From Mesaphorura yosii (taxonomy: Eukaryota > Arthropoda > Collembola > Poduromorpha > Tullbergiidae): 64,000 nt of DNA. Of the stretch, positions 2,964 to 60,300 are shown in pieces. The translations under genes were made by a program, and so were the position numbers. The notes under the pieces were generated by a model. It was not told the origin of the DNA. It saw only the letters and a list, made by a program, of their open reading frames with translations, and did not search any database. The stretch is from assembly GCA_009869945.1 (NCBI GenBank), contig WIXG01000220.1, forward strand, positions 62,001 through 126,000. The letters run 5' to 3'. Position 1 is the first letter of the stretch; the number at the start of each line of letters is the position of its first letter.

Positions 2964-4720
2964 CTAAGGACGGGTTGTCGCACCAGTCGAGCCTTCTGTG
3001 GAATCAATAGTATGGAGTTTTAATGTTCTGGCTAATTCTTCATCCTGTATTTCATTGTAGTCCGACACGCCAATCTCTTCTTCGGTTCTGCAAAAAAGTA
3101 TAGCTGTATGATAGCACTGCGAACAAAATCATGCGAAAATCCAGCATTGATATCAGTCAAGTACCTAATAAGAATATTTATAATGTCTTCAAGAATTTGC
3201 GTAGCTTCATCATAGCCTTCAAATTTATGATATTCCCGTAAAATCACATAGATGTTGTTCTCCCGTAGAAGTTCTCTCATTTCGCGAGTCTGGCACAACT
3301 GAATAGAAAAGTTATACGTAAGGTTCAGGGAAGGATGTTTTAATTATTTCTAGAGACAACCTACATTAGAAATTTACCTGTAGGAGACTTTCAAGAAGAC
3401 ACACTCTTACTCTCTCACACGGCTCTCGCTGTTTGTTTTCAGGCAGATATTGCAATTCAACAGGAAGTCGCTTAATATCCTCAGGAGGGAACTGCTCCCC
3501 TCCTGCTAATGGTTTTAACAGTGTGACCAAGATATCAGCTTCCTCAACCAATACTTTGTGGTGTTCTGGAACAAATATGTTTTACTAATACATGTAGGTA
3601 CGCCCTCAACTATCAACTCACCTTTGTTGAACAGGCAATTCTTGATCGTTCCAGCTAAATAATATCGCGAGAAATCGGAAGCACATGACATGAGGCAACC
3701 AACACGGAATAGGGGGATGCCAATCTCCTCGTCGATCAAAAACCTAGCAAGCACAATTAAAAATTGGGGAAATTAGGAACAAGACAAGCTGTACTTACTT
3801 TTGGAAAAAGTCAATCCTTGACAGATTGCATAATACCATTGCCGTACTATCCAAATATGGAACGCTTATCCCGTGGGTTTGCCACACATCGTACGGAAGT
3901 CGATCCATCAGAAGTTTTATGATATTAGGTTTTTGGCGCTTCAAGTAGTTACAAACTTCGACTTCTCTAGTCAAGTTGACGAGAATACTGTTGCTCAGCA
4001 TGTCATATCTGTGGAACTCGGGTTCAAACCAGAATTTGTACATGGACTCAATCAAGCGATGATTCATGACAGCCTCCAGCATGCTGGGTTTGAACCAACT
4101 GCTGAGCAGGTTTAGCACCTCAAATACTAGAAGCTCTGGGTAGTGTTTTTGGCCCCCAAACCAGGACATGTAGATTTCTTTATCAAACTCGCCAGTCAGG
4201 ATACAAGGAATAACCGCGCGCTGGTCCCTCATGAAGAACTTGGTTCGCCCATCCCTATCCATATCCTCAGTAATTTCCTTGACCAGTTCTTTTACAACCG
4301 GCGTGAATTCTTTCATGTAATCTGTATCATCCTCCTAAAAATATTTCATATTGATATATCTGTATATTTGGCCACAAATCAAACTATGGAGGTGTGAAAA
4401 TTAGGTCTTACCAACCAAACCGATTCATCGCCTGCGCACAAGCTTGGTTCCGCATAGTTATTCAGAATTCTTATTAGCCACTTAATGACGCGAGTAGTTT
4501 CAACCTTGAACATTGCATGAACCAGACGTGATCCATAGCCATCTTTAGTGGAAGCTATCAGAAACGTTTATAGTGACTGACATTCAACACATACTCGAGG
4601 CCAGAAAAAAGGCTCCGTGCCTAAGTTCTTACCATGAAACAGCATCAGCAATTGTGCTCTAGTCAATGAAAATGTATCTTCAGATTGATCCGCTTTAACA
4701 GGGGCACCGACTTGACTCAT
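2964..4720 (-). CDS. HGH1: HGH1 homolog (FAM203/BRP16), eEF2-folding cochaperone
   Basis: There are seven coding exons: 4720-4633, 4542-4412, 4334-3799, 3743-3622, 3565-3378, 3298-3165 and 3087-2964. All phases fit and give 440 residues. HGH1 is an armadillo/HEAT-like cytosolic protein that works with the TRiC chaperonin in folding translation elongation factor 2. The C-terminal half carries the family signature (DUF383/DUF384): LVNLTRE, VLCNLSR, a KNCLFNK turn, then LKPLAGGE followed by RLPVELQYLPENKQREP, and VILREYHKFEG near the end. The N-terminal 75 residues are weakly conserved, and the protein is somewhat longer than the human one (about 390). The start is the ATG beginning MSQVGAP, the only one in the first exon. 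The 5' end lies about 270 bp from the 3' end of the next minus-strand gene, so the two are in tandem. The last exon encodes an acidic tail (TEEEIG, QDEELAR). Confidence 0.92.
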
Positions 4721-12307: not shown

Positions 12308-15300
12308 TTACTCTGGTTTTTGTACTTTCAAGTATATTCGTCGGACAAACCCGCGTTGTCTGGGCTCACCATTTTTACGCTTTAACAATATGCGAATTCT
12401 CCTTTTCTTCATCCTTTTACTGTTCACCACTCTTTCGGTAACGTTCTTGCTCTCTGTGCTTGAAAGGACTCTATTGTAGTTGTCTTTGGTTGGGATTGAA
12501 CTCATAATACTGTTGTAGACCTGCCTGGCCCAGTGACCAGCACCTTTCATTTTTGGAGTACCAATTTTCTTCTCATACACAAACAATCTTTGTGGAACGT
12601 CCCCATCTATCGAGTTTGATGTGGTGGAAATTGTTCCAGCCCGCGAGCTTAGCGTCGTACTTGATATGGCGTAGGATCTCGGCGAAGAGGCTGGAATTTC
12701 AGGAAGCTGCTCCAAACTATAATCGTAATTTACAGGCGCCGCAGTTGATGTTGAAGTGGGGCGCGTATTGTACCTCTGAGCGCTTGGTCTTCGTGATGCC
12801 GGAGCCGCTGACTGCTGAAGCTGTAGAGAAAGCAGAAGCTGTTGTGTGGCTCGTCTGAAGGTTGGGGATTCTCTCAATAGGGAAAGCATGTACTGCTCAT
12901 TGGGAAATGGCACTTGCTCAAACCGAATGTTCTGCGTTTCTGACGCAGCAAGGTCGCCGTACGGGAATTCGGGTAGGGCTTCAGTAGTGGTGACAGCAGG
13001 TGGTTGTGTAGTTGTCGTCGGGGTAGTTGTTGTTGGAGTCGTAGTCGTAGTCGTAATTGACGCTGTAGTGGCCATAGTTGTTTTGGTCGTTGGAGGCGGG
13101 GTAGTAGTGGTCGTGGTCGTGGTTGGAGCAGTAGTTGTTGGAACCTCAGTCGCTGTGGTTGCTATTGTTATAGGTTCAGCCGTCGTTGATGAAGGAGTGG
13201 TTGTTGTTGTAGGCTCTGTCGTCGTTGAAGTGGTTGTTGTCGAAGGAGTTGTGGTTGTGGTCGTAGGCGTAGTTGTTGTTGTTTCCTGTGTTGTGGTGCT
13301 AGACGGAGTTGTCCACATACTGGCGGTAGTGGTGAATTCTGTTGTCGTTGTCGTCGAAGTCGTGGTAGGCTCAATCGTCGTTGTTGTAGTGGAAGGCGTG
13401 GTGAATTCAGTCAGTGTTATTGTGGATGGAGCCGTGCTGGTGGGTGTAGTCTCAATGCTTTCAATGGAATGTGGGTACACTGGCGTAACTAACACCCAGC
13501 TATCTCTTGTAGGAAGTCGTTCGCTGGAATGCCTGGTGTCAGCTTTTGTTCCTTGGCTAGTTGCCAAGTTCCGTGTAATCACATCCAGAATGCTGGACAC
13601 TGTTGTGGACGTTTGAGGTATGGCTGGCTTCGAGTACCTCTCGATGAGATTAAAAGCTGGGTCTCTTAGCAGGTATGACCGAAGTTTCAGCTGCTGGCCA
13701 ATTGAGAGTTGTTTCGAATTGTGAAATCCTGCCAAGTTTATGAAGATTAAGGTTTGATTCAGTCAAAATTTTAAAACCAGAGTCTGATAATTAAATAACA
13801 GGGTCGTAAACATGTTACCTCGCTCTTCAGAAGAAACGCTCCCACTACTGCTGTCTGAACCATCAAGTAAATGATTGGCTAAACTTTGAGCATTTGCAAA
13901 ATTAGTGAGTCCCAATCCTGGACTTTTCGCTTCTGGCCGGATTGCACCCACCTCGCCATTCCGTTCGAAGGTAGTCAGCTTATTATTAGCATGAACATTG
14001 ACGGTAGCTTCATTAATTTTGCGAGATGTGTTCGTGGCCAACTTTGAAATGGAGAATGTATCAATCAGCTCGGCTAATTCAATTTCAGTGTTGCTACTTG
14101 GTGGCACAGGCGCGGTGACGGTGTGATTGGCGATGCTGTACACAGTGTTGGAACCAGTCACGGAGTTGTCTCCCAAGGACATCACGTCATCAATGTAGAA
14201 TGGTTTCTGTTTCTGTATCATTGAAATGCATCAGACGCCTCTTGCTTGCAAGCAAGCACGCGCGCAGTATGTTCTGTATGATTCTCACCTGTATGAGAGA
14301 AGCCGGTCCATGTTGTGCACCAACTCCAAGATGAATGTTGTCTTCACGTCTTATATTTACCGGTTCAGTACCGTTTTCGTGGTGATGAAAGACTTCAATG
14401 GACTTTACAATTTCTGCAGCCATCGCTGGCGAGGCGGGCTTGCTCGCTTCCAAAACGTGTTGAATGATTTTGGCAAGGTCCTCACGCCTGATCGATTTGC
14501 TTGGGTTACTTGGCAAAGGCGAGACAAGTTTGTGGTCATTACTCGCGATAGAGTACGCCTGACCGGCAAAAACTGGCTCACGATCACGTTGATGATCTGC
14601 ATAGTGAGATTGACGTAGGCATAAATGTAGCGGCAAGAATGGGCTTACAAATGTACATGTTCAACGGGCTCATACTTGAGAATCCAGTCGCCAATGTTGA
14701 CGGCGTAGGTTCCAGGTGAGCTACATTCGGCTGAGTCTGGTGTGTCCGAACCGGCATTGGCGTTGTCACCGCCATTGGAATGTGCATTGGTTGCTGAAAC
14801 GCTTGGTGATGGAGAGCTTGCTGAAGCAGTAAATGCTGCTGCAGTGCTTGCTGCTGCAACTGTTCCTGAAGCGCTTGGAAGGGTCGTATCACTTTCGGAA
14901 ATTGCATCACTTGAATGAACTTTGGTGGATTCCCGGAGAATGCTTTTGGGACGGGAATTGTTGGATGTAAAATGTGGAGAGGTGTCTCGTTTTGCTGACT
15001 GAGGGGAACCGGATGGTGAGTCGTTTGCTCTGGCGTGAGAGTTGGAGGCTCATTTTGAGCCGGCCGGTAAATGTTACTTAATAAGTTATGATTATTTGGA
15101 ATTGGCAATATTAATTTTTGAACCGCGTTTGAAGCGCCATGGAAGGCTGTCTCTTTGACGAGAGTTGAATGATTAGGGGCATACGCAGCAACGGGTGTGT
15201 GGGTTGGCTGGAGCTGTAACTGGTAAGGAGGTAGGATGGAGGAAAATACGAGAGGAGTATGAAGTGGAGGGAGTCCTCCGACTGTATTGTACATCGGCAC

Positions 15301-45224: not shown

Positions 45225-45825
45225 CTTTAAACTAGTGCTCGGCACGGATCCCATGTCGCGGGATCCGGGTTCGACCGAATCCCGAATCGAAATTATTCGA
45301 ATCCCCAAAGCACGGAATCAGATTCGGATTCGACTGCTCCGAATCTTTAAATGTTTGATTCGAATCAAATATGACGATAAAGCTCTTGTAATGTATTCGT
45401 GTCACAAGTAACTTTTAAAGTAACTTTTATCACGTTCTGGAAAATAGTGCTTAAAATAATCTTCAACAATGATATAATCCAGCGTAAATATTTTTTCCTG
45501 CAGTTCTTTCTGTGACTAAATTCTTAAATTCATCTTGCACGGTGCATTTCGTCCACCTATGAAGGCATAAGCACTCTTCAATAATTCCTCTCCTCTCTGC
45601 CTCCTTTCATTTATGGGCCATGTGAGGCTAATCTTTCAATCGGGCCTCGAATTCATTATTTTGTCACTTATGAAGTGACTTTTACATTTGAAAAATGCGC
45701 TTTACGGAAGGAAATTAAGATTCGAATCCAAAAAGTTTGATCGGATTCGGGTTCGACTTTGTTCGAATCCCATACTTAGGGATTCAGACTCGAGATTCGA
45801 ATCTGTGCCGAGCACTACTTTAAAC
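45225..45825. mobile_element. Non-autonomous hAT-type MITE with 8 bp target duplication
   Basis: The element spans 45233-45817 (585 bp). It begins TAGTGCTCGGCAC and ends with the exact inverted complement GTGCCGAGCACTA. On both sides lies the same 8 bp, CTTTAAAC (45225-45232 and 45818-45825), the target-duplication length typical of hAT transposons. Both arms, about 100-130 bp each, are filled with reiterated GATTCG/CGAATC words in both orientations, so the arms pair as an imperfect long hairpin. No transposase open frame is present. It would depend on a transposase encoded elsewhere. The perfect target duplication suggests it is not very old. Confidence 0.85.
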
Positions 45826-48709
45826 AGCAAAGTGTCGTAGTAGCGTTTTGCAATTTTAGAAACTTTTGTACACTTCCATGAAAATCATTGAACCTTGTTG
45901 TCAATTATCACTGTGCATGTGACCTTCACCACGACAATGACTGGTCAGTCTGAGAAAGCTCCGAGTGATGTTACAATCGTGTACATCAGCGAATGTCCAG
46001 AGGAAGTGAAATGGTCCTTGCCCCGTTTCTATTCTCCGTACTTTGAAGGGAACAATAAAACTCTCTCTGTCCTTTGCTCCGTCTCCAGCCACAACCAATT
46101 GCCAAAACATAGTTACTTTCAGCTTGTAGTAGCCACGAAAATGCGTACATCATTTACTCCACACCTTGCCCATTCAATTAGGGTCGCATTTCATTTGAGA
46201 ATGCATTTATTAAATTGAGAACAAGAATCATTAAAGCCAAGCGCGGACAGTTCCAAAAGCATCAGTACTAATAAATTACTAGGTTGCTGCCAGCCTAATT
46301 TTGACACTATTGCGTTATATTTTCCCCTAACCTATTACAATGAAGGAAACCTGAATGTAGCAACTGGCATTGACCCACCGACCAGAGCAACCCAAGCAAA
46401 CAACCTGTGTCGAACATGGGCCTAACCTTTGAGAAAGCTGTGTCAAATTCCTTTGTAATTTGAACTATTCGAAGGAGCAGGAGAGAAGAAACGAAAAACC
46501 TGTACCCGAAACATTCAAAAGCCTCATAGCATTAGGTCGTGTTGGGCCTTAAGAAATGACAAGAATGAAGGAAATCATTCTAGAAATTACATTTGAGGAG
46601 TACGCAATGAATGGGTTTCTTTTTCTGTGCATTGAATTTGTGAGGGCATCACAATAAGGGCTCGCTGGTAATACCTAAACGGGACAAGAAGCTGCTTGGT
46701 TTGATCTCAACTACTTCTGTCTTCTCAGGTTCAACAATGCACTTTTTTGAGATGTGTATGAGCATTGCACTACAAAGGACAGGGAATGTATAAAATACAT
46801 TTGTAGGAAGAAATATTGAAAGAGCGCAGTAGTAATGGTTTTGCTCGTGATGGTGCAATACTTATGTGTTTTACCGGGCGGGCAACAATTGCATTATGAC
46901 GGCAGTTGATTGTACTACTCGTTACTTTGTTGAGTTTATGCATTCCATAAATCTCATCCATCCAGAGTCTTGTTCCATGTTCTAGGAGATTTTAGTGCCG
47001 AAAAGCTAAAAGCAGCATCTCATTCCTCGCCGGCATACCAGACGAACGAAAGACAAGGTCTTAATAAACGTGAGAAGAACTGTAGCTATCGAAGTAGTCA
47101 ATAAACATATCACTGTTCCGTTTGTTGATGCACTTGCTCAGTACGCTGACAGCGAAGAGAAAGACCACCATCAATGCGCAGGCGCAAATGCACCGGACAA
47201 GTTCACTCGCTGCTCAGGGCTCCTTGTTAGCGACAACAGGAAAATATTGAGGAATGTCAAGAGTTATTTTATTTGTACATTTTATTATGAGGAAGGAAGG
47301 GGAATGAGACGAAAATACTTACACTTTGTGCCCGCCCATACACAAGAGACCGACTTCACATTTTCTTGACTTGAGATAGTTGAACAAAGAAAGCGAGAAG
47401 TGAAAAATGATAACATCTGACCGGACTGCCTTCGGCACAAAAGATAAGGCAACCGTGTTCACAAATCTCTTCATGGATAACAAAAGTGAGGAATAATGTT
47501 ATCAGGGCCAGATCATAATTGGAATCATGACAAATACTTGCACATATTTTCATATAGAAGGAATAGTAATGCCATCAAAATAAAAGTGATTGGTTTTGGT
47601 TTAATGACTCTATTCGAGAGCTCTCGGCGAATATTACAGGCAAAATCCAAACTTGGGAATCGTTTAGCAACGCTTTGAATAGGCGATATATTTTACGACG
47701 ACGAAAGAACTTGTCAGCAAAGCGAACAAGCTCGTAAGTTTTTACGACTTCATGTTCTGCCATTCCGTATCTTATAATTAGAAAGGCAACAATAGGTACA
47801 TCATTTTTGGGCAAGTTTAATTTTTGTGAAATTATGACATCATAAACCGTCTGCACAAACCATTTCTTGGTCTGACAATGAGAAACTACAATAACGGTGA
47901 CTGCCAACAATACCACAATGAATACAGTTTGTTTGTAATACTGAAATCTGTCTTGTCATTTTGTGATATTAGACAAATGTAATATGAGGGAACAAAAGCT
48001 CTAAGCCCAGGTGCAAATATTTTTCGCCAGTTTCAGAAAGACGCTGGACGAAGTTCTAAAGGGTCTAAGCGGACAGACGAGTTGATTCATCCGACCTCAA
48101 TTAAACGCTGTCAAGAAAAGTTTTGCTACGAAGCCCGAAGTCAAGTCTAAAATTACTATCGCAAAATTTTGTTTTTGGGCAATTGACTCATGTTTGATAT
48201 TCGTCGTGTTTTCGCGTTATTTTGCATTGTTAATTCCACCATTAGCCAGATGTTCGCGCTTTAAAACATTAAATATGAACGGAAGAAAATGTAGACGACC
48301 AAACGAAGCTCTTCGTGAATTTGCACATTTCAAAGCTCGTAATATTTGGATGCGGGCTTAGTACGCAGAAAATGTAAAAAAGATGGGTATAAAATAAAGA
48401 CGTGTCATGGTAAAATGTCAACCCAAGTCTACCTCGAACTCTGAAAAGATTTTGTTTTTGTGAGACATGAGCGTCTTGTCTGTAATAAAGTGCCTATTAT
48501 AGCCTGTCTGGGTCCTAATGAGTGTGTCTCATTTCGCCTCCCCGTCTAATCATAATGAAAAGCGTCATCCCGCACACTCCTGTCTTCCCTGTACTTCCTC
48601 AAACAGCGAGGCATGTCCATAAATTCGCAATTTTCAGACAGAAACTCTGAGTTGTTGCACGAAAGCTGACATCACCAATACCTTTCTCAGATTTCTCTTT
48701 CACATTAAT
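45826..48709. other. Intergenic, possible unassigned exons
   Basis: No complete gene was rebuilt. On the minus strand an open stretch from about 47944 down to 47576 follows a reasonable acceptor (GATTTCAG). It encodes one predicted membrane helix and then a basic segment (FADKFFRRRK), but has no ATG and no clear partner exon. The other open frames are short and unconvincing. Confidence 0.35.
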
Positions 48710-49513
48710 TCATGCATATTGAACAAAGGTCATAAGCGGAGGATAATAAGCATTTTGCAAGAAATTATAATGAAACTTTGGAACGACGGTGTTGATTTCA
48801 AGAAAATGAAGCCAAAAGCACTGCAATAGTCACAGAGATAATCAGATCTACTTGGACTTACGGTTCTTGACAGTCTCAGAAATTTCTCCACTTGAGCTTC
48901 GTTTGCTGAGAAAACGCCAAGTGTAGTTTCAACACCAAGAGACACTTGGTCTCGAGATTCACGTCTCTCCGGGTTATTGGGTAGGTTTCTCACAGGGTCC
49001 AGTACGAGGACAGAAGGGCAAAATAAATTATGCACGCAGGACAACTCAACAGTGGCACGAAAATGTACGATTGCAACTTAATTAAGTTCAAGCTATGGAA
49101 ATGTAAACAGTTACTCGGTCCAGATTCTAACGCGTCTATGACACGAGATTCCAGGAGAAATAGAAACTCACTGCAACAAAGACGGGAGATCCATGCGGCA
49201 ATCGATAAGTAAATCGTAAACATTGGCGAACAACACGTCAGAGAATGCGACTGACCGCACAAATACGCACTTCTGCTTCCTACTTGATGCAACTCGAGAC
49301 TGCAACTAAATGGACTTGTGCAGTGTACAAATTTCTCAACTTCATCCCTTATCTTACCCCGTATGAAGCACTTGCTTCAGTAAATACAACGCTCACGCCA
49401 GAAGGTGAATGAGTTGATGTGGATATTGAGCTCAGGTAGTAAACTCGTAAGCTTACAAGCATAATGCAGCCATGCAAAGATTTACATGCAAAGCAATGAT
49501 AGCCAAACAGCAT
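48710..49513 (-). CDS. Unrecognised small multi-exon protein (candidate gene)
   Basis: Five exons chain in phase: 49513-49358, 49305-49172, 49092-49069, 48988-48862 and 48820-48710, giving 183 residues. Donors are mostly strong (GGG|GTAAGA, CA|GTGAGT, ACC|GTAAGT) and introns are 41-80 bp, as in neighbouring genes. The translated pieces have ordinary globular composition: GVSVVFTEASASYG, CVFVRSVAFSDVLFANVYDLL, a charged PNNPERRESRDQ and AQVEKFLRLSRT. I recognise no domain. The start is uncertain: the ATG at 49513 is the first in frame, but a strong acceptor (CTTTTCAG) lies just upstream at 49531, so a further 5' exon is possible. The 24-nt third exon and the last exon are the weakest parts of the model. 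It diverges from the plus-strand gene at 49634 across about 120 bp, suggesting a shared promoter. Confidence 0.4.
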
Positions 49514-49633
49514 CAACCTTCCTTCGAGAGCTGAAAAGCAAAAGCTGCGTCGCCAGATATCACTGAAAGTTTCTCTCACCCCCTCTAACGATCCATCCGA
49601 ATGGCGGACGGTTTACGCCAAAAATAGTAAACA

Positions 49634-50483
49634 ATGCTCAAAATGATAGATTCTGAAAATGAAGTGAGTCTTGCTTGTTAGTGGCATGCCTGTTCCAAGA
49701 TTATATTATTCTGTCTTGTTCTTATCCTTGAGAAGCCAACCCAACGGAACAAATGTTTGAAGAAGCAGGGTCCCTAACTGATTATTGAACAGCTTTTGAC
49801 ACCCATTTCATTGCCATTTGTTCGTGAGGACTATCTGGTATTTAGTCCGAAGTCATTCACTAGACCATATAGGTATAAATTCCAAATTAATCAATAAGTT
49901 GTTCGTTATATTTGTCCAAAAATGAGACAGTCGCTTAGAAAATTCTGGCAGCCAACCCGGCATGAGGTAATTAAAATGAGCAACCACAATTTAGACCTGT
50001 ATCCAACGGTTATTTGATATAGTTGACAACTTTAGCCTAAAACTTCGCTACATCCACGAATTTGTTCCATAAATATTTTTCATAACTTTTCTTGGGTCCC
50101 ATCCCTCTGTTCCAGGGTCAAAACAGTCAAGATTGCGCTGTCGAGATGAGATTAGAAATTTGTCACACTAAAGTCGGAGATTTGTCAGCACGACTGCGCC
50201 TGCTACAACACATTCCTGAAGAGTCTTGTCAAAGATTTCTTTATACTGTTTTCGCCCAACAATGCCGTTTACAGCTTGCTGCTAATATGAGTTTCACCCA
50301 AGTGAACTAGTCATGTTACATGTCTCGTCATACCGCAATTGATAATTAGTAATTACTATTCTGTAGACCTTGCAACATGGCAGTGAAAATCCCGGAACGC
50401 GACAAGAAGTTGAAGTAATGTTACGACAGGTAGAGAAAGTTTGTCGGGTGTTAAATCATCAAATTGATTATATTGCTGCCTAA
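49634..50483 (+). CDS. Unrecognised small protein, five exons
   Basis: Exons 49634-49663, 49829-49872, 49939-49966, 50116-50301 and 50367-50483 join in frame into 134 residues. Acceptors include a long pyrimidine tract before 50116 (CCCATCCCTCTGTTCCAG). An AATAAA lies 9 nt after the stop, as expected for a compact gene. The protein starts MLKMIDSENEDYLVF, has a basic/aromatic patch (RPYRKFWQPTRHE), a probable helical core with four cysteines (residues about 40-95: DCAVEMRLEIC, SCQRFLYTVFAQQC) and a C-terminal helix (QEVEVMLRQVEKVCRVL) that could form a coiled coil. No signal peptide or membrane segment is visible, so a soluble intracellular subunit of some complex is a reasonable guess. I do not recognise the family. 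Its 5' end faces the minus-strand candidate gene. Its 3' end converges with TMEM134. Confidence 0.62.
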
Positions 50484-50491
50484 ATTGTTGA

Positions 50492-50497
50492 AATAAA
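50492..50497 (+). terminator. Polyadenylation signal of the small five-exon gene
   Basis: AATAAA 9 nt downstream of the stop codon at 50481-50483. Confidence 0.5.
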
Positions 50498-50987
50498 ACG
50501 AGTATATGTGTTGGAAATGAATTACAAAATGTGTAATTATTCAGAAATGAGAAAAATACATATTGCAACAAATAAATACTAAAAGTTAGAAGCACAATTA
50601 ACTCACAGTGGAAGTAAATATTTGCACATTTAGACCTTAGGGAGGTCAAAGTAACCGACAGCTATGCCCCTTCCTGGACAGGCGATTGGAAATTTGTACA
50701 ATATTCTGCTACTTTACTATTCTTCGGTGAAGTTGTTCCTTTAACTATTTCAAAATTGACTTTGAATTTTTACAACTATACAGTTACAGTGAGCACTGGA
50801 TTTGAGGAGACTTTAAGCTGGTATTATTGAGGTAGACCATAGTGCGTGCTAGTTGTTGACAATCCTTCCGTATATATTGCAACTGGATTGCTGACTAACA
50901 GCCGAAACTTCATTCTTGGATAGCTTTGCCCCATTGAGATTGGTGCTCTGGGTGACTTCAGGATAAAAAGTTGAGTTCAGGTTGAAA

Positions 50988-52100
50988 TCAATTGAAGAGT
51001 GGAAGGAAATTGAAGTCGTAGCCACGTTTCCCCTTCACAGCCAGATATATATAAATCACGTGATAAGCTCCTGAAAATTTCAACGCAGGCGATTAATTAA
51101 TTGCTTCTGATTTAAGTCTTTTCTTTGAGATTCTCAAAACCTTGAAGCTCAAATCAACGAGTTTCCATGCTACACAAAACTTTCTTTTGTTCACTAAAAT
51201 TGCTAACGACGAGGGCTCGAAACTCGATCAAATGAAAAATTAACAAACCCTGGTCTAAAAATTGCTATTTTTAGACCAATGCTTTCCTTATGGGCAAAAC
51301 TTTCATTGCTTCAGAGGGTTTTTGTGTCAAGCCCATAGTCATATAATTTTGAGATTGTTTTTAACTTTAACTTTTCAAAAATTCTTAATGACTGAGTTTC
51401 GAGCTTTCGGTATTAGGCATTTTAGCGTCATTCTCGGTGGCTCAAATATTTCAATACCTGGAATCAAGCATATTATTCCGGCAATGAAAAAGACGGCGCC
51501 CTGCAGTCCACTGATCGGGAGGCCAACAATGCAGAGTCCAGCAATACACAAACCTGTAAGACAGAAGTTAGTTCAAATTGAGCCAGTTGATCAGTTTCGT
51601 CAGTGGACTGAAATGTTCCAAATGTACCCAGTCCAATAAAGAGAAGTGAGAATGCCGCGAGCACCATTTTCCAGTGTTCCTTTACTTTAGGATGCTGGTA
51701 CCACGGCAGGGACGGATCAAAGTCGAAATCTGAACTCTCAGCGATGAGAGAATCACTATCCTTTGAGGCTGTCTGGAATTTGCAATTAGTACTGCATTTA
51801 GTTTCCTTCTTTCCGAAGTGAAATTTCGGGATTTTAAGTTCAAGTCCTCACATCGTGCTCAGTTTTAATCTCTGCGAGTCCTCTCAGGATGGGTTTTATT
51901 CCTAAAGGATTTCCAGGGTCCTGAATCTGGACCGTAACTGCGTCAGAGGAACCGGAAGGGCCACCCAAAAGCCCATTCCGCGTCGATCTTAGCGGTGACC
52001 GTTCTGTGGTGGTAGTAGCGCCATAAACTCTGATCGCGTCTGTATGCTCCTCTTCGAATGCATCGTCGATGGAGAAATTCTGAGATCGTTTCGAAGACAT
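50988..52100 (-). CDS. TMEM134: TMEM134, two-pass membrane protein
   Basis: Four coding exons (52100-51852, 51772-51628, 51553-51458, 51070-50988) give 190 residues, close to the human 195. The N-terminus has the family's FSIDDAFEEE, followed by a Ser/Thr-rich cytosolic region. Then come WYQHPKVKEHWKMVLAAF (human SWTQHPLIQKNRRVVLASF), a first membrane helix at about 118-140, a second at about 150-175 (GAVFFIAGIICLIPGAYHV), and the ending AVKGKRGYDFNFLPLFN, matching the vertebrate AVKGHRGFQFFYLPYF. TMEM134 is a small ubiquitous membrane protein whose function is poorly known. A consensus donor (CAG|GTAAGT at about 52183) and an acceptor directly before the ATG (TCAGCAG|A) indicate an untranslated first exon. 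The last exon was found from the conserved C-terminus. Confidence 0.93.
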
Positions 52101-55091: not shown

Positions 55092-56345
55092 ATGGTAAAA
55101 ATGGACCCAGATGAGGTAATGGAAGTATGCTCGGACGAGGAAGAGTTCAAGGCCGGAATTGGGGTAAGTGTCGCTAATGCTTGGCGAGATAAGCAGCAAT
55201 AAGTTAAACTCTTCCGACGAAAAGGGGTGGCCGCGAAAGGCTAAAATCGGATACTGATAACCACTTCATTAATCATGCCCCCATCATTTGCATGGCTCGC
55301 GACCCATTCCGTGCTTGAGAGATATTCTAATTAGGCGAACACAATGGCACTATATTTTTAATCCTATTGTGAACCTGCAGAACGGGAGTTTTTGGAGTCC
55401 CACTGCAGAAGAGGTTTCAGAACTGTACGAGAAGATAACAACATCTAAATTCTTGGAACTGTCGTGGCAATGCCCCGGCCGAAGTAATCCAAATGACGAA
55501 GCATCGCTTCAAGAAGTGCAGGCGGAACCTGCTGTGAAGGAGTAAGTTGCTTTTATTCAAAAACAGTTCATTAGGACTATTTTCATGTGCGCTTTAGTAT
55601 AGGCTTTAGGCGCTAGTCGCTGATTTGGCAGGCTAAATTAGTACGAAACTATTAAACGATCCTTTCACTGATTTGAAGGGAGGAACCGGAAACGAAAACT
55701 GAATTTGATTCGAACTTCGACGACGACGACAAGCCAACCCTTCGACCGACACTAAAATCGACGCCGAAAGGGAGTGCGAAGAAGAAAACCACGAGTTTAG
55801 CAGGCATTCTGAATAATATGGAACGTACACGGTACATTGAGGAACTCGGTTCGGAAGGTCGAACTCTTCTTCTTCAGATATCAAAACCCATAACGTCCAC
55901 TCCGGATTCAATCAGTCAATCGATTGATCGGGTACTTGGAAGCCAGGCAGCGCTGGAGCGGACAGAAACGCAGGAAACACCGCCACCGCCAGAGCACAAA
56001 GGTCAAGAAGATTCGAAGGAAGAAATTATTATGGAGACAGACTCATCATGTGTGATGGCACCTCTCCCGGCGTCCACTGCTCCTAATACAACAGAAACAA
56101 CCACAGATGACACGTGCGCTACCATCACCACGGCGCCCGCTATACCACCGGACCCGAGTCCTCCGTCTGGGTCGACCGACAAAGCCACCAATGATATTCA
56201 TCCAATCATAACAGCCACCGCTAAAACTGAGAAATCGGAAAGTGAAAGTGCTGACGCAGTGCCAACTCCACTTGCCTCAACCCCTGACGTGGAAGCTCCT
56301 CCCGCCGCAGAGACGGCGGCTCCGAGCACGTCCGACCCCAATTAA
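55092..56345 (+). CDS. PAGR1: PAGR1 (PA1), PTIP-associated subunit of MLL3/4 complexes
   Basis: Three exons (55092-55163, 55381-55541, 55679-56345) give 299 residues. In animals PAGR1 binds PTIP in the nuclear KMT2C/KMT2D histone H3K4 methyltransferase complexes. The conserved core is seen in order: VCSDEEEF near the N-terminus, FWSPTAEEVSELYEKI with LELSWQCPGR, the TEFDSNFDDDDKP acidic motif (human TEFDFDDEPVTPK), and a helix ILNNMERTRYIEELGSEGRTLL (human [24 protein letters not shown]). Two differences from the human protein stand out. The N-terminal extension before CSDEE is nearly absent. After the core the protein continues for about 150 residues as a Thr/Pro/Glu-rich disordered tail (TETTTDD, PPDPSPPSG, APPAAETAAPS). 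The ATG chosen is the first of three in the first exon (MVKMDPDEVM). Confidence 0.85.
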
Positions 56346-57317: not shown

Positions 57318-60300
57318 TTATGACACGTCTTGATCCTCGGCGTCTTGTAGTGGCTCTTTTGGTTCGGCTTCGCCACCTGTGCACATTTAACCCAGTATGT
57401 ATTATAAGACATTGGGAAACAGTAGAAAGAACTCTTCAAGAACTTTTGAACTCTATTCAGTAATTGATCATGTAGGGAACAAACCTTCGCCTTGCATATC
57501 TGATGTCCAAAGAGTGAGGTTGTCTCGAAGAAGCTGCATGATCAGAGTTGAATCCTTGTAGCTTTCCTCAGACAACGTGTCCAACTCGGCGATGGCGTCA
57601 TCAAATGCCGCCTTAGCCAAACGACATGCCCTCTCCGCCGAATTTAAGATCTCGTAGTAAAACACTGAAAAGTTAAGTGCCAAACCGAGACGGATGGGAT
57701 GCGTGGGAGCCAACTCGGACATTGCAATGTCGCTCGCAGCCTTGTATGCAACCAAGGAGTTCTCCGCCGCTTCCTTGCGATCTGCTGCAGTAGCGAACTC
57801 GGCCAAATAACGATGGTAATCCCCTTTCCTATTAACAAACAGAAACAGATTTCACTCGAAGTTTTCTAAAATAGCAGGACAGGAATCGTGACTAAATAAC
57901 TCACATCTTGTAGTAGAAGACCTTCGACTCGCCTGTGCTAGCATTTGCGATCAAATGCTTGTCCAGCACGTTGAGAATGTCAGAACAGATTTCTTTCAAT
58001 TCTTTCTCAACCTAAAAAATCTGGCTTAGTTACACCGCAATTGCGATTCCATCGTATTCCTTATATTAATTAAGTGTTAATTACTTGAGCGCGGTATTGA
58101 CGGATCATCTCCAGCTTCTCGTCGCCGCCTTTGCTTTCCTCCTTCTGCTCAATGCTTGAGATAATTCTCCATGAAGCCCTGCGAGCCCCGATGACGTTCT
58201 TGTACGCAACGGAAAGAAGATTGCGTTCTTCGACTGTCAGCTCAACGTCCAAGCTGGCAACTTTCTTCATTGCATCCACCATTTCTGTAAAGAAATAATG
58301 AGATCATTGCTTTTGCTGGGATACGCACATTGTGTAGGCAAGGATAAGTGAATTCATAGAGGAGGCATTTTATCCTCTTCAATTGTACCGAGTTTCCTTA
58401 CGGTGACAAAGAAGTAAACGGCATCCATAAAATTAGATGGCATTTAGTGAAGAGAAAGCAAGCACATCATAAAGTTCGTAAGCTCGATAATTAGAACTCG
58501 TTGAGGTGGATTGTGCAACTTCAGTGTATTTATGCCCCTAGTTTTGGCCCATTTGGTTCTATTTGCGTAAACAACGGCAATTATGAGGCCGAATTTGGAA
58601 TTTCCCAAATTATTCTATGCCAAATTACCGCAGCACAAATTATAGAAAGGCGAAAGGGCAGGAATAATTTTATTGACTTTCATTCGAACTAGGCAGAAAA
58701 AAGTCCAGGCCAATCGTCCAAGAGCTTTGTGCATCATTAAGGTCACTTTTCAGTTCACAGGTGAATGTCAATACCAAATTCCTGTTAACTGATTTGCATG
58801 CATAAACTCCGATTCTGTCTCATGATTCATGATTACATTACAGAAGAAATAACACAAGTCATATGTGATTTCCATTTTTGCTTGACATTCTTTATTCATG
58901 TAGTGCGCACCGGCAATTTTTGAATTGCAGACCATAAATCATTCTGCTCGGTCTTGTCTCATCAGAAAATAGAGAAAAAATTTGGAATGCACGACTCACT
59001 ACACGAGTGTGCCCGGCCGGCTGGCATTCCTCCCATTTACTAGAACTAAGCTAAACGCTGCGGTTGCACTCCAGAAGATTGCACCCACTCATTCATTTCC
59101 TTTCCGCTTAAAGTGTTTATCGCTCCTTTAAAAAGGCATGATAATAATCGCACATCATTCATTTCATTTAGTACAACTTTAAGTACTTCCACCCATACAT
59201 GCATAGATTTTGAGTCTTGTTTTAATGTGTTGCGCTCAAAAATGGAGACAACGACAAATTGTTTATGGAGAGTCGAGTGGACAATTGCTCTGCCCAGCCA
59301 ACCATTTCTGTTTTCTCTCCATTTCTCGTTTGCAGTACATCCCAGTCATAAAACACAATTATAATGAAATTGGTCCTACTTCCTTCCTTCTAATGAACTT
59401 CCTCTGGGTCTTCAAGAGTCGTACTTTGCTGTAATAAAACTCTCGCTGCGCATTACTCAAAAAGTACGAGGAAAGACATAATGATGCCATCAGCAATGTG
59501 CAGTTCGCAGAGCTGTACAATGCGATGATACGGAAAAGTGCAAATTCAAGCCGAGCTATGCGCTTGCGACAAGTTGCTTCAATCGATAATTCCAATACAT
59601 GCATACAGCCTTGCTCGCTCGCTGTGTTCACCTCTACTATAACAAAGCCGCTCAGCACTCGCTTACGCAGGGAGAGAAGTTAACATAAAACATCAAAAAC
59701 TCTTTTTACAGCCTGCACTCTCCACACATCACCAAGACCAGACCACCACCATAGTCAAAGAATACACGGCGGACTTTTACTTGTGCAATATCATCATCGA
59801 ATTCTCTCCTGCCTCTTGCTTCCTTTCACCTCTTTATTTTCCTCTCGCCGTAATAATACATAATATTAACCCTAGAATTCAAAGACAGATAAAAGCAGGA
59901 TACTGGACGAACGTGAAGATATGAACACGAACTGAGATCTAAACAATCTGAAGACACGCCGGAGAAACTAGCCAATCTCCATACAAGCATAGAGATAGAT
60001 CAAACCCTGTCTATCAGCGCCAGCTTCTTCCACTCGAATGAGGACCAATGCATTAACGAGGAAAGGAAGAGAAAGAAATCCAGTTTGAATAGAAAGAAAG
60101 ACTATTGTTGTAAGAGATGACCAACCATCGCAACACATCACAGATCACCTCATTCCACTTCCATCACCGTCATTTCACAGGTCATATGTACAAATAAAAA
60201 TGATCGGACCCGAATCAACAGGAGAATAATGGCCCTATGTGCGATTATCAGGACGCCATGACACAATGTGGTGAAAATGAATTTATCGCGAAAAGAACGA

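Follow-up and report, generated by a model that had tools for sequence, protein, structure and literature searches.

Within a 64-kb window of the Mesaphorura yosii genome (the window being the whole stretch of DNA that was analyzed), an 850-nt locus raises the question of whether a small protein-coding gene is hidden there and, if so, which parts of it are coding. The window originates from contig 220 of a 93-Mb genome (1,127 contigs), and its recognizable genes are animal-like. An original prediction had placed on the + strand of this locus a gene of five exons that would encode a protein of 134 residues. The individual features of the locus and its closest neighbors are compiled in Table 1.

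Table 1. Features of the candidate locus and of neighboring genes, in window positions.
Feature	Position	Strand	Remarks
Exons of the five-exon chain	49634-49663, 49829-49872, 49939-49966, 50116-50301, 50367-50483	+	30, 44, 28, 186 and 117 nt
Exons 1 and 2 (49634-49663, 49829-49872)	49634-49872	+	rely on the two acceptors with the lowest scores
Preferred first coding exon, ATG 49922, MRQSLRKFWQPTRHE	49922-49966	+	ends at the best donor nearby, GAG/GTAATT
Intron 3	49967-50115	+	149 nt; best-supported intron; its donor and its acceptor score highest of the sites listed for the locus
Exon 4	50116-50301	+	likely coding; 62 codons, begins and ends in phase 0; follows the strongest acceptor nearby (TTCCAG)
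Intron 4	50302-50366	+	65 nt; weak donor CAA/GTGAAC, fair acceptor TGTAG
Exon 5	50367-50483	+	likely coding; 38 codons and stop
AATAAA, possible polyadenylation signal	50492-50497	+	8 nt past the stop
TMEM134-like gene	50988-52100	-	PF05915 TMEM_230_134, E 8.9e-06, 26.3 bits, slightly below the cut-off of 26.8
14-3-3 gene	57318-58282	-	four coding exons from a simple gene finder

The five exons, which had been described as lying in a single frame and being separated by introns of 65-165 bp, are present to the letter. Together they comprise 405 nt, equivalent to 134 codons and a stop in one open frame, and the introns between them measure 165, 66, 149 and 65 nt. Splice sites were scored with donor and acceptor matrices derived from 30 hand-picked introns; the conserved genes of this genome had yielded 46 inferred introns in total. 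The four donors of the chain obtained scores of 1.14, 1.99, 3.58 and -1.35, which are equalled by 4.5%, 2.0%, 0.4% and 28% of the GT dinucleotides in the window, respectively. The corresponding acceptor scores are -1.16 (a GAG site), -4.34, 3.37 and -0.29, equalled by 21%, 63%, 0.6% and 14% of the window AGs. The earlier wording of consensus splice sites was therefore too generous for the GAG acceptor of intron 1, the acceptor of intron 2 at -4.34 and the donor of intron 4 at -1.35. An AATAAA motif does follow the stop codon as had been noted, at a distance of 8 nt where 9 nt had been given. With 0.95 occurrences per kb on each strand of the window, the motif supports a gene only modestly.

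How easily such chains arise was determined by starting from every ATG of the window. If splice sites as weak as the worst of the five-exon chain are admitted, a chain that spans no more than 850 nt and has 134 or more codons can be started from 471 of the 2,476 window ATGs, and under the same lax splice rules from 330 of 2,538 ATGs in simulated DNA. With a stricter earlier matrix (16 introns), such a long chain was started by 14 of 300 sampled window ATGs. Under an ordinary codon usage score, 2,389 of the 2,476 window ATGs have a best chain that equals or beats the five-exon chain. A chain of this length is expected by chance, and an open chain by itself is no more than chance. The continuous frame through spliceable exons that characterizes a protein-coding gene is found here, yet it is cheap by chance; with approximately one window ATG in five starting a long multi-exon open chain under lax splice rules, such a chain is weak evidence at this locus. 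The 471 comparable chains favor the explanation that the locus is non-coding intergenic DNA, in which an open path runs via many weak GT/AG pairs and any GC pattern in exons 4 and 5 is a fluctuation.

This explanation can be weighed against the base composition of the individual exons. In the proposed frame, the GC content at the first, second and third codon positions is 0.565/0.387/0.323 in exon 4 and 0.632/0.316/0.289 in exon 5. Exons 1-3 are without coding periodicity (0.41/0.35/0.41), as is intron 3 (0.40/0.33/0.34), the exon-type periodicity is missing from intron 4 (0.38/0.27/0.36), and it is gone in the 178 bases past the stop codon (0.30/0.29/0.29). Between exons 4 and 5 the periodicity shifts phase as the removal of the 65-nt intron requires. 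Frame-specific composition that is present in exons and not in introns or flanks, a hallmark of coding sequence, was found for exons 4 and 5 only and not for exons 1-3.

Background stretches were taken from gene-poor parts of the window (20.5-29, 31-49.9 or 50.9, and 59-64 kb), which may contain undetected genes. With a statistic of GC by codon position that was chosen after a first look at the data, none of 152 open segments with 62 or more codons was as extreme as exon 4 and none of 464 open segments of 38 codons was as extreme as exon 5. Both GC differences of the whole five-exon chain were found in none of 739 chance chains from simulated DNA and in none of 170 from the window, a background that takes in the candidate's own region, and the chi-square form of this test was reached by one of the 739 and two of the 170 chains. 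The values of both exons agree with the means of 49 known coding stretches (GC1 0.55, GC2 0.38). In these stretches GC3 ranges from 0.31 to 0.86, which places exon 4 inside the range and exon 5 (0.29) slightly below it, and five of the 49 have a GC3 of 0.34 or less. The difference between GC1 and GC3 is unusual in comparison to the known coding stretches, as that of exon 4 is exceeded by two of the 49 and that of exon 5 by none. Among the separate periodicity peaks of the 64-kb window, that of exon 5 ranks sixth in strength. The peak of exon 4 (9.9) is not outstanding alone, and three separate intergenic peaks of 150 nt are higher (10.5, 10.5 and 10.2), as a chance origin would allow. Against chance stand the two empty background counts and the observation that the pattern occurs in two adjacent exons, in the frame proposed for them, does not extend beyond these exons and changes phase between them as it must. 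Chance is assigned an appreciable probability, and we rather doubt that it accounts for both exons.

Plain codon usage, on the other hand, speaks for chance. The codon model was trained on 55 of 81 family-matched loci, several of them being exons of one gene, after 26 loci with internal stops had been dropped. Per codon, the whole chain scores -0.108 and exons 4 and 5 score -0.084. For comparison, 55 conserved stretches that had been held out gave +0.117 +/- 0.076, and 136 samples of intergenic DNA gave -0.144 +/- 0.046. Both values of the candidate are lower than the minimum of the conserved stretches (-0.035) and close to the intergenic level. The plain model penalizes AT-rich third positions. 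After adjustment for third-position GC, exons 4 and 5 together score +1.9 versus -9.6 +/- 4.6, and their score is reached by 10 of 1,202 background windows; taken singly, the adjusted score of exon 4 is reached by 12 of 152 segments and that of exon 5 by 14 of 464. The amino-acid composition is intermediate between background and 14-3-3 and is reached by 14 of 300 background translations. A simple gene finder that relies on the codon usage of the genome found nothing at the locus beyond short chains with scores of up to 5.5, and the same gene finder proposed the 14-3-3 gene, a DUF383/DUF384 gene, part of the TMEM134-like gene and others. In a codon score trained on this genome's conserved genes, the candidate falls near intergenic DNA; GC by codon position singles out exons 4 and 5.

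Gene models that contain these two exons were then compared. Intron 4, at 65 nt, falls in the size range of 63-80 nt that 16 of the 46 inferred introns occupy. Five in-frame joins lead from exon 4 to the stop. The 50301/50367 join used here ranks second among them (-0.42), behind a shorter join at 50184/50384 (1.39) that would leave 55 residues and throw away most of the periodic exon 4. Two starts were considered. The exon that begins with ATG 49922 is in frame with exon 4 and has an in-frame stop upstream of the ATG; its composition gives no support (codon score -2.9), the exon being too short to judge. Together with exons 4 and 5 it forms a three-exon model of 115 residues, and a start at ATG 50146 results in a two-exon model of 90 residues. 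In one scoring scheme, the three-exon model obtained 3.61, the two-exon model 2.22 and the five-exon model -3.80. The respective N-terminal parts, scored separately, obtained -0.37, 0 and -8.35. In simulated DNA scored with the adjusted model, 27 of 5,165 ATGs reach the three-exon score with at least 110 codons and 94 of 5,165 reach the two-exon score with at least 85 codons. The whole-gene scores are therefore not significant, and their occurrence in simulated DNA is a further point on the side of chance.

The same comparison bears on the gene as it was originally drawn. Its frame is open across all five exons and its donors 1 and 2 are acceptable, but it requires the GAG acceptor and a second acceptor that more than half of the window AGs equal, its exons 1-3 are without periodicity and it scores 7.4 below the three-exon model. 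It is very improbable that the five-exon, 134-residue gene is correct in this form, and exons 1 and 2 are probably not part of the gene. A basic aromatic patch, RPYRKFWQPTRHE, had been described in the protein. If coding at all, this segment probably reads MRQSLRKFWQPTRHE instead, because the model starting at ATG 49922 outscores the five-exon chain.

A gene on the opposite strand, with an open frame at 50359-50661 (-), might lend its codon pattern to exon 5. This minus frame runs for 101 codons without a stop, and its first codon positions line up with those of exon 5. However, the part of the frame outside exon 5 is without periodicity (0.30/0.29/0.29) and has a codon score of -11.1 over 59 codons, and stops are present in all three minus frames across exon 4. 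An opposite-strand origin of the pattern is considered extremely improbable.

What is observed at the locus is an open frame, a frame-specific composition in exons 4 and 5 that is missing from the adjoining introns and from the DNA past the stop codon, and one intron with strong sites. Exons 4 and 5 are probably genuine coding sequence, and on balance we favor, with moderate confidence, the reading that the + strand carries a small protein-coding gene with these two exons as its coding core. To that extent the idea that this strand hides a small gene is retained: such a gene is likely for exons 4 and 5, given their composition and the phase shift between them, and the five-exon model of 134 residues is unsupported. 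The likeliest start would be ATG 49922, giving three exons and 115 amino acids, followed by ATG 50146 with two exons and 90 amino acids, and we infer from the sequence that the candidate would be transcribed, spliced and translated.

The surroundings of the candidate contain several further features. The TMEM134-like gene lies downstream and is convergent with the candidate, the stop codons of both being approximately 0.5 kb apart, and its last exon (50988-51068) reads AYHVIYIYLAVKGKRGYDFNFLPLFN. The top solved-structure matches of the 14-3-3 gene are 14-3-3 epsilon chains. A multi-exon gene at 2964-4720 (-) contains DUF383 (E 1.4e-20) and DUF384 (E 2.3e-15), which we take to be the domains of HGH1. 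An open frame of 484 codons at 12311-13762 (-) contains long threonine-rich runs and appears mucin-like; its opposite strand yields a valine-rich translation that misleads codon scoring. At 55677-56342 (+), a coding-looking exon was found with a PAXIP1_C match below threshold (E 0.0031, 18.1 bits versus 27). Inverted repeats of 24 nt, 92% complementary and with 551 nt between them, were identified at 45226-45824 and resemble a terminal-inverted-repeat element, of which a DNA search revealed no further copy in the genome. A repeat origin of the candidate locus itself was set aside, as the region 48000-50990 has no second copy in the genome according to a DNA search. Rfam searches at the gathering score produced no match within the window. 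In an exon-by-exon count, the whole genome contains at least 153 Pkinase and at least 158 rhodopsin-type receptor matches, and some of the Pkinase matches span most of the domain and are located in long stop-free frames on small contigs.

The predicted product had been reported to belong to no recognized family, and this was borne out, as none of the collections searched yielded a relative, an outcome that would also be expected of a chance frame. The 134-, 115- and 90-residue versions gave no Pfam match above cut-off. When E values up to 10 were admitted, the 90-residue core gave three Pfam matches, the best two being Cep57_CLD (PF14073, E 0.056) and CDT1_C (PF16679, E 0.15). Their scores of 13.9 and 13.1 bits fall below the respective cut-offs (28 and 25), and neither match appeared with the 115- or the 134-residue version; both were read as noise caused by helical composition. 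The one NCBIfam match (12.7 bits, to a regulator with a 480-bit cut-off) was likewise rejected as noise. Searches of PDB sequences with the 134- and 90-residue versions identified no relative, and a de novo designed repeat protein with an E value of 3.6 was rejected. No paralog was identified in the genome itself, where the three matches outside the locus, considering the best candidates only, had E values of 0.465 to 1.81. In viral and prokaryotic contigs, 7 and 25 pattern matches were obtained and none was confirmed in this search, which is sensitive to close relatives only.

The helical core that had been proposed agrees with two AlphaFold models calculated without relatives, both of low confidence. 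The 134-residue version was modeled with helices at residues 40-66, 69-100 and 105-133 (pLDDT 42), and the 90-residue core with helices at residues 10-20, 25-55 and 64-89 (pLDDT 58). A fold search with the latter, low-confidence model returned no match at E values up to 10. The product may thus be a small all-helical protein in which two long helices would follow a short basic start. Twin CX9C (CHCH) proteins contain two CX9C pairs on antiparallel helices. The candidate was rejected as a member of this group, since the spacings of its neighboring cysteines include CX8C, CX21C and CX11C and none is CX9C.

Because the product is short, lacks a domain match and is predicted to be helical, we tentatively suggest that it would serve a larger complex as a helix-packing adaptor or structural subunit and would not be an enzyme; judged from size and helicity only, this role is a possibility to which we give limited weight. 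Small helical adaptor subunits are known from animal complexes, for example BLOC-1/BORC, Mediator and the kinetochore. The candidate resembles such subunits, in a general comparison and not one by one, in having near 100 residues and a predicted all-helical structure. Unlike them, it has no Pfam model above cut-off and no fold match, the latter with a model of low confidence.

The locus represents an ordinary orphan-gene candidate and not a new kind of system. Small orphan genes, which are restricted to certain taxa and in some cases arose de novo, are discussed in PMC12605812, PMC12051474 and PMC7162840. Like the genes treated there, the candidate is short, has few exons, belongs to no recognized family and shows atypical codon usage. 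The candidate could equally be a divergent member of an old family, however, and its lineage restriction and de novo origin would be hypothetical. That exons 4 and 5 encode a real small helical protein which also represents an undescribed family and is absent from the current gene sets of this lineage is, taken as a whole, somewhat unlikely. If real, the candidate would be another short gene of the kind that filters based on exon size and codon usage can miss.
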